DNA of 64,000 nucleotides from Undaria pinnatifida (Eukaryota > Sar > Phaeophyceae > Laminariales > Alariaceae): positions 12,609,973 through 12,673,972 of the forward strand of contig JABAKD010000010.1 in assembly GCA_012845835.1 (NCBI GenBank), in the 5' to 3' direction. The position numbers and the translations under genes are program-made. How positions within the stretch are numbered: the first letter of the stretch is position 1; each line of letters opens with the position of its first letter. Below are positions 45,101-57,500 of the stretch, in pieces. The notes under the pieces were generated by a model. That model was not told the origin of the DNA and did not search any database. It saw only the letters and a list, made by a program, of their open reading frames with translations.

Positions 45101-45537
45101 ACGACAACAAATATGATGACGAGGATCATCACGGACAATCATGCTGGTGATGACGATGGTGGAGTTGGTGATGGTGATAGTGATGGTGATCGTGGCGGCA
45201 ATGGTAATGATGATGACGACGACGGTGATCATGAGAATGATCGTTATCTCGGCGATGATGTCGATGACGATTATGATGAGGGTGTGATGATAATACTAAT
45301 GATGATGGTGATAATGACGATAGTAATGATGGTGATGATGATAATATATGTATGATGATGTACGTGCCCCACTGCCGGTTTTCAGGACGAGGAAGGGAAG
45401 GAAGGCGGGGCGCGGGGCGGGGATGAGGGTGAGGAAGGTGGGGAGTACGTTAGCCGCAACGCTCGCCTAACGCTAATGATGGAGGACGAGCTGCCCAACT
45501 GCCACAACCTTGATAGAGTCGATGAGTTCGCGGTGAG

Positions 45538-45572
<35 letters not shown>

Positions 45573-48500
45573 GGTGTTGGTGTTGGTGTTGGTGTTGTTG
45601 CTGTTGTTGTTGTCGGTGCTGTTGTTGTTGTTGTTGCTGCTGCTGTTGTTGTTGTTGATGGTGGTGGTGGTGGTGCTGTTGTTGTTGTTACTGCTTTGTC
45701 GGTGCTATTGTTGTTGCTGCCGTTGTTGCTATGCTGTTGTTGCTGTGCTGTCGTTGCTACGCTGTTGCTGTTGCTGTCGTTGTTGGTGATGCTGTTGTCG
45801 CTATTGTGTTTCCTGTCATTGTTGCTGTTACTGTTTTTTGTTGACGCTGGTGCTGTTGTTGCTATTGTGTTTCCTCTCATTGTCGCTATTATTGTTTTTT
45901 GTTGACGCTGGTGCTGTTGGGGTTTGTGCTATTCATGTTGCTGCTGTTGCTGCTGATGACAGAGAAAGTTCTGCTACGTGAACAGCAAGGGAGCCAGGAA
46001 AAGGCTGGTTTCTGCGCTGTTCAACGTACCCCGGCAAGCCCTCGACCTACTCCCTATGTATGCAAGGCTTGTCGCCATCCTCGACAAGGTAAGCCGTCAC
46101 TGAGTGATCATTTAGTTACCCTTAGGCGCCGCGCAAAGAGTGCAGTGGTGGTAAAGTGGTAGGGGTGGGAGGGGGGGGGGAGGGGAGCTATGATGAGAAA
46201 GGAACGTAGAACGGAAACTGGTGAATAAATCTTCATAAGAAAACATACCAGTAGACGACAAGGGACTCGATCCACCCATCTTTGTGCGGGTTTGATGAAA
46301 GGGAGCGGGGATCTACAGATTTCTTTTGTACAACACGCACATCTCTCTATTTTTCTCTCTCGCCTTTTTTTCTCTAACCACCCTCTTTCCCCCCCCCCCC
46401 CGCCCCCTCCCCCGCCCTTTGTCCTCGACTCGGCAGGCCATGAAGAGCATCGCACCAGCCCTTCTGGAAGAGCTCAGGAGTCATTTTAGGTGCGCCACAA
46501 CCATCGCAAACGCGCGTGTCCTGCCATCGCGCGTTACCCCGTGCACGCGAGTTTCTCGTCCCCGTTTCACTCTACATATATTTTAGAGCTCCTCTCGTCG
46601 CCTACTTCCGCGTTGACATCGACATTCACTCATTGCCTTATTGTTTTGCCCGGGTGCGTATTGTTTTACGGCGAAGGCTGTTATAGTAAAATATTTAACC
46701 TGCACCTGGTATGTATCACGTGAGCAGGTACCTCCTGAGGAAGAAAGCGCCGGGTCAGATCGAGCACCGCATCAAGAACGTCCGCTTCATCGGAGAGCTT
46801 GTCAAGTTCAGGGTGAGGCGAGCTACACACTGTACACACACCAGACATCACACACCAACACCAAGTGTATCGGCGGCACTAACAGGTCACACCAACACCA
46901 CCACCAACAACAGCTAACAACCAAACACAAAACCAACACCAAGCACTAATACCAACCACCAACAAAACCCGATACCTAACGCCAACACCAGAACATCATA
47001 AACAGCAATACTAACACCATCGCAGGAACACCAACACCAACACTATCACGCCAATATCAGCACCATCAGCACCAAATACGAACTACCACCACCTAGCACG
47101 CAACCGATATCAAACGCCTACACCACACACCACACACCGGCACAGCCATCAGCACTAACACCGACATATCGAACACTCTATTACCAGCACCGAATACTAA
47201 CACCAACACCGAACAAAAACACCAGGCACCAATACGAAACACCAACGCCGGCACAGCACCAACACCAACACCGAATACTATTAGTAACACCATGCACCAA
47301 ACACAACGAAAACACAAGCATAACTGCTAAACACCATCACCTATCACCAACACCGAACGCCGATACAAAACCCAATACCAAACACCAATACCCAACACCA
47401 ACACTATTAATAACACCAACACAAACAATAACGACACCGCCAACACCGAAACCAACATCAACAAAACCGTATCACCATCAACAAACACCAAAACAAACAC
47501 CATTTACACCAACACACCAGACACCAAACACCAACACCAACGCTACAACACCAACCCCAAAATACCAACACCAACCCTATAAACACCATCGCCAACCCCA
47601 TCACACCAACACCAACATCACTAATAAAATGGAACATCCAACAACCAAACGCCGCAGGTGGCGCCTCCGATCATAGCATTCCAGTGCCTGAAGTCTTGCC
47701 TCGACGACTTCAGCTCCCTGGCAGTGCAGACTTTGACAGCCCTTCTAGAGACTTGTGGAAGGTGAGGGGGGGGGAGGGGGGGAGGGGCAAAGCCTAGCGT
47801 GTACTTCTGCTGTTGCTGATGCTGCTTCTGTTGTGGGTTGTTTGTGTTGCTGCTGCCGATGCTGTTGGTACTACTGTTATGGCTGCTTGCGCGCTGCTTC
47901 TTTTCTGGTAATACACATAAAACGGTGACAATGACTACGAAATGCTTTCTTTGTTTGCGGCGACGGCGGCAATGATGCTGGTCCAGGTTTCTGTTCCGGC
48001 AGAGATTGATGTCAGGGGGTGGAGGGCATAACGCGTTCGATACGATACATCGAAAGTTCGATATTACAATATACGAAGTATCGAAGTTCGGTAGTTTGAT
48101 ATGTCGCAAGTTGTAAACGGTATCCAGTACTAGCATGGTTCGTAGACGCCACGCATAAGATTATGAGGCCGTTTTGTTTGCGGCGGCGACGTTGGTTCAG
48201 GTTCCTGTTCCGGCAGAGACTGACGCACCAGCGCATGCGGAAGTTCTTGACGGTGATGATGAATCTCAAGAAGGCCAAGAACCTCGACCCAAGACTGGAG
48301 GCGCTGGTGGATAACGCCTTCTACACCTGCTGTCCGCCCGAGAGGTACGTACAAAGTTTATATTAGCAGTGGGGTGTTTTCGAGATTCGTAATTTACTTG
48401 GGTAGGAAAATATTTAATACTCCGGAGTACTACTAATAGTATTGAAACCGACGAAAGTCATAACCCGAGGCCAACCCAACCCAAAAAACTGGCTAAAAAT

Positions 48501-51500: not shown

Positions 51501-54500
51501 CTCGCCCTCTCTGCTGCCTGCTATGACGCAACAGCAAACAGCAGCAGCACTAATTTGTCGCACCACGGACTCTGCTTATGTGTCTATGTATGTGCGCTTC
51601 TGTGTTATTGTGTGCGTGCAGCTTGTGCTGCCATCGGTCATAGGCACAAAATACAATCAAGAAGATCGGTGTTTTTTTTTTTAAAGCAGCCGCTCAGCGT
51701 CACAGCCGCAAACTCAGTATGTACACAGCAGTACAGCAGCGGTAGCAGCAGCGGCGAAACGGCGGCCGTGCTCCATGCTCTCGCCTTTGTGCCGGTCACA
51801 GTGTGTGTGGTTGGTGCACAGCAGCAGCAGGAGATCGAACCACAACAGCATTTTGACGTCCAATGCAAAGTCAAGCACACATCGTTGGACCTTATACCAG
51901 GTATACGAAGAATACAGAAGCAGCAAAAAAAGCAATAGCACATACCAATACAAATCATTGGAACGCCTGTGGTCCCCCTTATCAAATGGCGTCGCCAACA
52001 GGATGTCAAGTCAACCATATTCCGAAGGGAGACCTTGCATAACGTGTTACATGTACTGGTATGCGTCATCTGTAAAATTTGTGTACTACACTATTTTCTT
52101 GTCTCCGGTACGTAGGTACGCACGCACACTTCGTATCAGGACACAGAACAGTATAACATATCATGCTGCTGTTGTGCATGGTACTTGTGTATTTATGCAT
52201 AAGTACCCCTATTCCCGAGGTACCAAGCAGTAGGTACGCACAGGGGTACGCGTGAAGCACGAAACAAAAAGGAACCAATATTTTGTAGCACAATCCTACT
52301 TCGTACCGTATTTCAGAAGAACCAACATCCCAACCGACATCGTGCTTTTGTGTTTCATTTCGACATGGAGGCGAGTGGCGTTTTCACGTGCCTTCACAAT
52401 AGCAAACCGTTATTTCCAGTGTTTGTTTCTACCCAACCGATATCAGCAGAACACCTGGTGTCCATCCTGCTTCTTCGTAGTACGGAGATACAAATTATGT
52501 GGTCACATAGTCATACATCGAAGCTTAGCAGTCGCGATTTAACAGAGGTTGGGGGCGAAATACGAGGACCAAAACTGTGACGAGTTTGGTGCTGTCAGCC
52601 GTTTAGGGTGAGCCCGAAGCAGGTGCGAGTATCGCCACACTGCGCGCGTGTCGTACATCTTATTACATGGTTCGGAAGCATCCCTTTTCCCGGGAGCCCG
52701 GGAAATCCCCCGGGGGTGCTTCGTATCGCCGTTGCTGTAGTCGTCGATCTCAATCTCAAGATAGCTATGCGCGGGGCGGTGGTGACGAGCCTCATCCCGC
52801 ATATTTGATTCGTGTTCTACTTGTTGTACGCCCCTCCATCTGTACAACGACGACGGTGGCTGCTAGCCAGACAGCTACGGTAGTGCCTTATGTGCTTGCG
52901 GTCTGCTGTATCCTCTCCACCGCGCGCTCGTCCTCCTACACGACGATTACTCTGCGCACTCCCCTCCATCTGTACAACGACGACGGTGGCTGCTAGCCAG
53001 ACACCTACGGTAGTGCCTTATGTGCTTGCGGTCTGCTGTATCTTCTCCACCGCGCGCTCGTCCTCCTACACGACGATTACTCTGCGCACTCACTGCTTGC
53101 TAAGGGCTAGATGACGCTGTTGAGACTCACGTACATCGGACGAATCACGGTCTAGACCTTAGGCCCTACATCTGTCGTTGTGATATGTTGTGCGGGATCT
53201 GTGTAGTGCAAATCCAACCCAGGAAGCATGCGCAGGGGTCATGCGGACGTACGCATCCCATCCGGCAATACCATCTATAGATCAGGCAGATATTGAAGGT
53301 GGGATCTGATCTGTCCGATGTGTGGAGGCTTGTATGCACGCCATTCTCTCATGAACAAACCCAATATTATCGTGGTTCAGACGGGGGGCTCCCGGTGGTG
53401 CCGGTTGAACAGTGCCACTGCTGTCTATGGTGCCGGTGAAATTGCCTGGCATGGTTAGAACTTTCTATTGTAACCCTGTTCCCAATATTGCCAGTGGCCC
53501 TGGCTAGTGCCGGTATATTGGACTGGCACATACGATCTTCCTGGACTTTTCTGTTAATCGCTTCAGCCGTAATGCTCACAGCAGCAGTAGTGTCTGCCGC
53601 TCGGTCACCAACCAAATCTCTGTATTCTGCCGTATGTTTCGCCTCTCTAGTACCCGTCGTGTCCTTGTTGCTCTCCAAGTTCAACCTCACACGTACTTGT
53701 TCTGTCATATAAAACGTAGATGTCCCCGAACCAGCATGCCTTCCATATGTCAAGATGCAGTACCGTTTCACAAAACTCCAGATTTCCTGCGTTCAATCTT
53801 CCACGTTGGGAGTCCCCCACGTTATGCGGAATAAGGTAAACTTCTATCAATGAGATAGTACGTAGGTAGGGTGCTTGTTCAATCTTCCACGTTGAGAGTC
53901 CCCCACATTGCGTTATACGGAGTAAGGTAAACTTGTATCAATGAGATAGTACGTGGGTGGGGTGATTTTGCGATTTCCAAACTCTGCTGGGTTGGGAAAA
54001 GTGTAAGAAGTATTTGAAAACGATTAATGTCATAAACCAAGGGCAACCCACTAACGAAAGGAGCTATTAATAGGTTAGGAAAAAATGTATAATGGTGAGT
54101 TGGAAAATATATGTTCTGACCTATTTTTTTTGCTGGTTTTTCTTTTTTTTGTGGGTTGGGTTGGCCCTTGGATTGTGACGTTCGACGGTTTCAATATTAT
54201 TACTATTAATAGTAATACACTTTTTCCTACCCAACCCCTACCCAACCGGAGAAGGAACATCGCAAGGACCCTAGTGCCAATGACGCGGGGAACTCGCATA
54301 GCAGGATATTTTGTCGCTGTCGTCGACTTTGTGTGCATCGGTGGTCGGCGCTAGGCCGTATTCCAGGGTTTTTCACGGGCCGTGGTCCGGCCCGCGGGTC
54401 GGATCACGAAACTTTTCGAAAACTCGCGGGTCGAGTCGGGTAGGGTAAGGAGGTGTTCGAAATCCCACGGGTCGGGTCGGATCAGGTCAGGAAGTAATCA

Positions 54501-57500
54501 CAATCTCACGGGTCGTGTCGGGTCAGGTCATCCTGATCCGATCCGACCCGCGAGACGTGATCCGACAGGTGTTCGAAATCTCGCGGGTCGGGTCGGATCA
54601 GGTCAGAAAGTATTCACAATATCACGGGTCGGGTTGGGTCGGGTCGGGTCATCCTGACCTGATCCGACCCGCGAGACGTGATGCGACCCGAACAGATTCG
54701 TGGTAAATTCCGTCTCGAAAGGGGTTCCTTTTTTGTGGCGCGGTGGAAGTTGGAAACCTTGGAAATCGCTCGTAATCATACCACATGGGAATAGTCGAAA
54801 CATTTGAAAACACTGATACCACACGACATCACGTTATATGACATGGTAGTACATTATTTGATTGTCGTATGCGATGCGTTTCACGATGTTTTGACCCCCT
54901 ATGTTATTTTTATATCACGAAAACGATATTTTTTTTTTGCTTATAGTCGTATTTTTTATTTGCTTGGTTAGGCAGCAGAGAGCCAAAGCGAGGACGCCCC
55001 CTCCCCGCTGTACCATACGCGCGTATACGACACTATCTATCTACCAACACACCAACGCACCCAATATTATATCGTTTAATCTTAGCTCTTTTTCGATCGA
55101 TAAACAAACGCGACATTATTTCGTACAATTCCAGACTATATTCTCTGCTTTTTTTTTCCTTATTCGCAACTTTTTGAACCCGAACAGGCAACAGAGGGCC
55201 ACGAGAGCGAAAACGCCGCTCCAGCTGTACGTGCGACGGCTGATGATGGAGAAGCTTAAGGACGACCCGGACGTCGTGGAGAGCGTGATCAAGCAGCTCC
55301 GAAAGCTGCCGTGGGAGGTACTACACATGTCTGTTACTGGTGGGGATGGTGACTGGGGGTGGTGGGGCTCATCAAGCAACGCTGGAAGCTGCTGTGGTAG
55401 ATACCATGCATGTCTGTTGCTGATGATGGAGGAGGGGGATGGAGGTGGTGGGGGGTGGTGTTGGTACTGTTGGTTTTGGTGTTGATAGTCGTGGCGGGGG
55501 GTACACTACACTGTTGGTGTTGTTGGTAGAGGGTACCGGTATGATTTTGGTGATGGTGGGGGGGTACTCAGTTTGTGCATGGCCTTAGTCGTATGACCAT
55601 AGACCCTCGCATCCCTACTGTGCCAGGACGGAGCACATCGGGTTTCACCAATCAGGTGGTAGGGATGGTGGGGGTGGTGGTAGTGATGGTAGGGGTGGTG
55701 GTGATGGGGTTGTTAGGATGGTATCGGTTGTAGGAAAGAGAGGGGGTGTACTCGATATTCATGCATGGCCGTGGTCGTATGACCATAGACTACGGAAAAG
55801 GAGGGCGGGGGGTTGGCGTTGGTGATGTCGGGTGTTGGTTGCGATGGTGTTGGCCGTATTGCCGGCGATCGACAATATGGTTTATCATCCCCACCTCTGC
55901 CCCCTCCCCTCCCTATATACCCCTGGTGGCGGCGTTTTTGTTTCCTTCTTGTATGTCATATTCGTACGAAAATCGTTTTTTTTTGTTAGGATGGCTAAGG
56001 TTGAGGCGGAGACCCTTCGCACATGTCTAACGTTCGCCGCCCCCTTCCCCTACACCTGCTGACGGGTGTTTTTCTTCTTGTTCGGTGTGCTCTGGTTTGG
56101 GATTTGTTTTTGACAGGACCCGGAGTCTAACGTGGAGTCGGAGGTGCTCCGCACGTCGCTTCGGCTGTGCAGGTCACGATACCCCTGTATCCACCTAGCG
56201 GCCGACGTGTTGTCGGGGCTGGCGCGATATCAGGACAGGGTCGCTGTCAAGGCGGTAGATGCGGTCTTAGAGGCCATGCACAGGGGGATTGAGGTAAGGG
56301 GAAGGGGCGGGGCTGGGGGGGGGGGCACATGTGAAAACGTATCTACAGTCACCGGCCCTCCCCTAACCCTTCCCTTCTGATTTTTTTTTGTTAAAACATT
56401 GCGCTACCCTCTCCCGCCTCCTCCCACGCCCCCACCTCCCGTCGGATTTTTTTTTTTTTTTTCCGCCCCCCCCCTCCCTCACTGGTCTATCTTATGTATA
56501 GGTTGGGTTGGCGTCGGTTGGCAACGACACTGTAAAACATGCCGCTTACTACATGAGCTAGACCACCAGGGTACCGTTCTTTTTTTGCTTGTTTTTGGCG
56601 GTCGATCACAGCTCACGGTGGAGTTGGATCATGTGTGCGGCGTGGAGAACGTTTTCTCCGCACAAGGGGAATGATTGTACCACGTACCTGGTAGTGCTTA
56701 TGGTAAGGCACCCACGAGGCAGTTACAGGTACGTAGTACTCCAATTGCTATCTCTGGAAGTGGCCATACCGGAAATTAAAATAACTGATTGAAGCTGTCA
56801 CTCATATGGAAGTCCGCCTCGCAGGCGGTTCTTAGTAGGATGCAGCCCACCCCTCATGCGACTCGCCGAACACCTCACGGCGCTTCGCGCTCGGTGCAAG
56901 CAATGTCTGCCTGGTCGGTGAAAACCCGACGTGCTCCGTTCCGGCATAGTAGGGATGCGAGGGTATATACCATATGGTCATAACACTATGCATGAACATC
57001 GAGTACACCCCCCCCTCCTCGACTGAGCATGTTTCATTATCACAATCGACGTCACCCCCCTCCCACCCACCCCATCATACATTGAATTTAATCGCAAGTG
57101 ACCCCCTTCCCCTCCCCTCTCTTCCCTCCCGCCCATGATGCTACACGAAACGGACGCACTGCTGTCGTTGTTTGTCCACGTTTTTTTAAGGTACCTGGGG
57201 GGAGCAGGGAGTTCCAGAGGCTGGTGGGATACGCACGTCTTCTGGCGGAGCTTTACAACTACGCCGTCGTGGGATCACCGTGTGTTTTCGAAACGCTCAA
57301 CCTCATCCTCAACAACGGCCATGAGGTGCAAGTACTTCCAATGTCCTTCTAATAGAATTGTAGTATACGTGGGGTGCAAAGGCTACCAGGCATTATTACA
57401 AGGGGATTTCGCCGCCCCCCTGGTGAGAGCCGCCAACGAAGCTAAGTCGACGAAAAATACTAACTGTAAACGGCAATTTTATATGCCAAGGGCTGGTTAA

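Follow-up and report, generated by a model that had tools for sequence, protein, structure and literature searches.

Why does the intron before exon 18 of a UPF2 gene hold a decayed copy of that exon's own acceptor and first bases, and is such a copy tied to splicing? The window analysed here is a stretch of 64,000 nucleotides (C2:12609973-12673972) of a 511 Mb genome in 68 contigs. The gene was identified as UPF2 by its sequence: when 48202-48345 is translated, 48 residues match 4cek_A (regulator of nonsense transcripts 2) with E=1.5e-4, and this match and the reading frame place exon 18 at 48201-48344 on the plus strand, as are the acceptor, donor and spacer features described below. In a Pfam search with exon 18 alone, no match was obtained at E<=0.001. 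Exon numbers follow those of the original prediction, and the UPF2 boundaries (18 acceptors and 15 donors) were placed by visual inspection of open frames and splice consensus, with some placements uncertain and some exons possibly missing. Repeats of other kinds are also present, including a long degenerate CACCAA-rich repeat (46829-47650) in the intron that precedes the exon at 47658, with a similar stretch on the opposite strand near 45510-45958, and a tandem duplication (52828-53091) that is 98% identical at an offset of 130 bases.

The presence of the exon 18 copy was confirmed. By alignment, the stretch 47950-48009 reproduces, in diverged form, the end of intron 17 and the opening 23 bases of exon 18, and its counterpart is the working acceptor region and exon start at 48173-48223, where the AG ends at 48200. 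The pair has a local score of 35.5, which no dinucleotide shuffle of the intron reached (0/1000): the shuffles averaged 13.4 and went no higher than 23. A whole-window self-comparison gave E=6e-4. The exon part alone scored 21.0 (reached by 0/1000 shuffles) and the intron part alone 15.0 (reached by 15/1000). Identity is 82% over 44 ungapped bases (47966-48009 and 48180-48223), and TTTGTTTGCGG is present 5' of both the real and the copied acceptor. At a copy offset of 214 bases, the copied AG occupies 47985-47986 and the first base past it is 47987, not 47988 as had been proposed. In the original prediction, similarity ended after about 25 exon bases; 23 copied exon bases were found (47987-48009), followed directly by a dispersed repeat; stretched to 48056, the alignment is weak and enters this repeat. 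The duplication is a local direct repeat of about 50–60 bases, which falls in the size range of break-repair small duplications (tens to hundreds of bases).

The two exon 18 copies are 163 bases apart and not directly adjacent. When 47900-48300 was searched against the genome, 20 other matches were found at 18 loci, all at query positions 106-207, which correspond to the end of the first copy and the spacer. In most of these matches, TCGATA-rich sequence comes after a CAGGGGATGGAGGGCA-like block. The spacer occupies 48010-48172, and its first part (to about 48130) is like this dispersed repeat, whereas the last 40 or so bases have no match in the sequences searched. The repeat piece in the window (48010-48130) is TCGATA-rich with a TGCCAGGGGATGGAGGGCA-like block, and the family is found at 18 further loci, with several copies in L042. 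In at least three of these 18 (L002, L033 and L034), the family extends leftwards through a common stretch; because other loci continue in this way, the window piece is read as left-truncated at the end of the exon copy. TGYCAGGGG was considered as the element end and rejected, as the sequence extends beyond it on the left in three or more of the other copies. At the junction, the repeat piece reads GATG and the exon GACG, leaving GA(T/C)G as a short shared sequence. Spacers of the exon 19 and exon 20 copies, described below, gave only self-matches within the 348 kb searched.

This arrangement would also be expected if a repeat element had inserted at the exon boundary and produced an unusually long target-site duplication of 50–60 bases. 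The two exon 18 copies flank the spacer, the element piece begins 0 bases after the end of the first copy, and filler that starts exactly at the copy end also fits an insertion that makes its own duplication. However, the window piece is left-truncated, the final part of the spacer matches nothing searched, and the other members of the family do not behave in this manner. At 16 of the 18 other loci, flanking direct repeats stayed above the lowest p (0.003), the nearest being L034 (0.019) and L002 (0.031), while L008 and L042 reached p=0.003 but hold further element copies. Long target-site duplication by this family was rejected on the basis of these 16 loci without significant flanking repeats, and we consider an insertion of this type unlikely at exon 18.

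The claim of three such duplications in three successive exons holds firmly for exons 18 and 19, and weakly for exon 20. For exon 19, the upstream copy of the acceptor region (54930-55013; real region 55149-55230) scored 30.5, reached by 0/1000 shuffles with a maximum of 20.5, and is as firm as the exon 18 copy. The copied exon 19 acceptor is in frame with exon 19, and the two share a continuous open stretch of 116 codons (54972-55317). The exon 20 copy (55927-56027; real region 56060-56157) scored 23.0, which was reached by 9/1000 shuffles (p=0.0067 in the boundary test), and when it was split, the score of the exon part alone was reached by 48/1000 shuffles and that of the intron part alone by 516/1000. 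In addition, a strong direct duplication that had not been predicted was found in the exon 19 donor region (55296-55453), pairing 55296-55367 with 55381-55453 at a score of 36 (p=1/601).

Three acceptor hits on consecutive exons could suggest that these copies serve as decoy acceptors in the regulation of UPF2 splicing, their use leading to nonsense-mediated decay. Splicing at the exon 18 copy (47987) would remain in frame for 43 codons and then meet a stop, splicing at the exon 20 copy (55990) would meet a stop after 2 codons, and self-regulation of NMD factors is a subject of published work. However, the exon 19 copy (54972) would give an open in-frame extension of 72 codons with no stop, and the rate of copies at acceptors equals the background, as described below. 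The mixed outcomes predicted from the sequence (stop, open, stop) do not look like one regulatory device. If true, the decoy reading would describe a self-regulating circuit that arose from accidental duplications; we consider it extremely improbable. Hardly any weight is likewise given to its fuller form, in which the three consecutive boundary duplications would be competing acceptors, two feeding UPF2's own decay pathway and the third adding a 72-residue segment.

Each placed UPF2 boundary was tested for a local copy and compared with pieces from elsewhere in the window. Copies at p<0.01 were found at 3/18 acceptors (48200, 55187 and 56116) and 1/15 donors (55317, score 36, offset about 86). 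On a window grid with a 150-base step, 57/422 positions had a local copy with a score of 24 or more at p<0.01. In a genome sample of 20 x 10 kb, 82/919 positions combined a score of 24 or more with the smallest attainable p (66/82 of high complexity). The sampled positions were taken at round coordinates and not by random draw, include exons, repeats and satellites, and are not independent, as a satellite-like array in L019 was counted eight times. This array (L019 7339-9247) has a unit of about 210 bases. Local repeat density differed by region, from 0/46 to 9/46 positions per 10-kb piece.

Acceptors and sampled genome positions did not differ (one-sided Fisher p=0.22), with a score of 24 or more needed for both and a slightly more lenient threshold for acceptors (p<0.01) than for genome positions (p<=1/201). 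At the genome rate, 3 or more of 18 acceptors would be expected with a probability of 0.21, and at the window rate with 0.45. Pooling of boundaries, which mixes thresholds and unconfirmed segments, gave 12/148 compared with 82/919 genome positions (p=0.88). The exon 18 copy therefore looks ordinary, because sampled genome positions have comparable copies about as often. A pattern tied to exon starts, as implied by the original prediction, is not supported, and the very comparison with random frequency that the prediction had named speaks against it. In favour of such a pattern, the consecutive placement of three hits among 18 exons has a chance of 16/816, about 2% by hand count, although the third hit is weak and local repeat density varies between regions.

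The confirmed exon sample beyond UPF2 is small, and coding-like segments were used as a weaker stand-in, scored in L013-L032, L044 and L045 with a codon model from 748 UPF2 codons. Seventy-six segments scored 7 or more, and the removal of 14 overlapping segments left 62, many of which are unconfirmed. Edges with a missing flank or N were removed (7/62 at the 5' side and 2/62 at the 3' side), and local copies were found at 4/55 of the remaining 5' edges and 4/60 of the 3' edges. Pfam searches with eight coding-like segments gave four matches (MIF4G, BipA_C, ERGIC_N and, below the cut-off, HEAT) and four segments without a match. The ERGIC_N segment is outside the set of 62, displaced by an overlapping antisense segment, and the set therefore has at least one false exon. 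L044 and L045 hold a second MIF4G-domain gene, which we take to be eIF4G-like and in which one or more coding segments have local repeats at an edge.

A general process that copies exon starts into the preceding intron would account for the copies in this gene, two of them firm and one weak. Against this, copies at acceptors, donors and sampled positions (3/18, 1/15 and 82/919), and at coding-like 5' and 3' edges, make such a process very unlikely. Acceptor-specific enrichment was rejected, as it was not found when the UPF2 acceptors were set against the donors, the window grid and the genome sample, nor at the coding-like edges. A catalogue of 264 kb contains at least 76 non-simple direct repeats whose copies are separated by less than 1 kb, with a median identity of 76%; 25 have gaps of 10 bases or less, 8 of 10–50, 25 of 50–200 and 18 of more than 200. 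The exon 18 pair ranks among its lower-scoring entries (28), and the catalogue is a lower bound, as it lacks the pairs of exon 19, exon 20 and the exon 19 donor. Local duplications are genome-wide and not bound to one type of functional site (82/919 sampled positions, 57/422 grid positions and 76 repeats in 264 kb).

We consider it likely that the exon 18 copy is an old local duplication with filler, which arose from error-prone repair of a staggered break and is now inert intron. A staggered double-strand break would have occurred across the boundary of intron 17 and exon 18, and fill-in of both overhangs would have duplicated the overhang, about 50–60 bases. A truncated fragment of the dispersed repeat may then have been joined in at the short shared sequence, giving about 160 bases of filler. 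The downstream copy would have remained the working acceptor, while the upstream copy would have become neutral intron and decayed. We infer this mechanism, the order of its steps and the lack of function; what was observed is the duplication, the repeat-derived filler, the short sequence shared at the junction and the background frequency of such duplications. Local repeats at the donor and at coding-like segment edges, including one in the MIF4G-domain gene, argue for a break-repair origin, and the consecutive placement of the three acceptor hits (about 2%, hand count) counts against it. A plain tandem duplication is insufficient, because the exon 18 copies are not adjacent; we propose that the case works like one, with filler. 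Two points lower our confidence slightly: the lack of adjacency, and the presence of one or more false exons among the stand-in segments.

The local-duplication background in this genome is high (82/919), and it is needed before exon-boundary copies are read as a splicing feature. Cryptic splice sites can arise from boundary copies, which may also mislead gene prediction, but the exon 18 copy looks ordinary. A literature search found no report of this locus, although one may have been published.

Several known systems resemble the exon 18 case. Partial exon duplication, or intron gain by tandem duplication, is a known process, and exon 18 is like it in that an exon boundary with AG|G has been duplicated; however, no new intron was formed, and the upstream copy sits within an intron that was already there. 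Introner elements place repeat sequence in an intron near a splice site. Exon 18 shares this likeness, but its element piece is inside the intron and does not supply splice sites. According to one study, small tandem duplications arise from fill-in repair of staggered double-strand breaks, and natural insertions in humans and plants indicate such a break-repair origin (PMC8355091). Work on rice by Vaughn and Bennetzen (2014) is among the references of that study. The exon 18 case is like the duplications described there in being a local direct duplication of tens of bases. However, the copies in that study are adjacent, whereas those of exon 18 are strongly decayed with 163 bases of filler between them, and no recent event was observed here.
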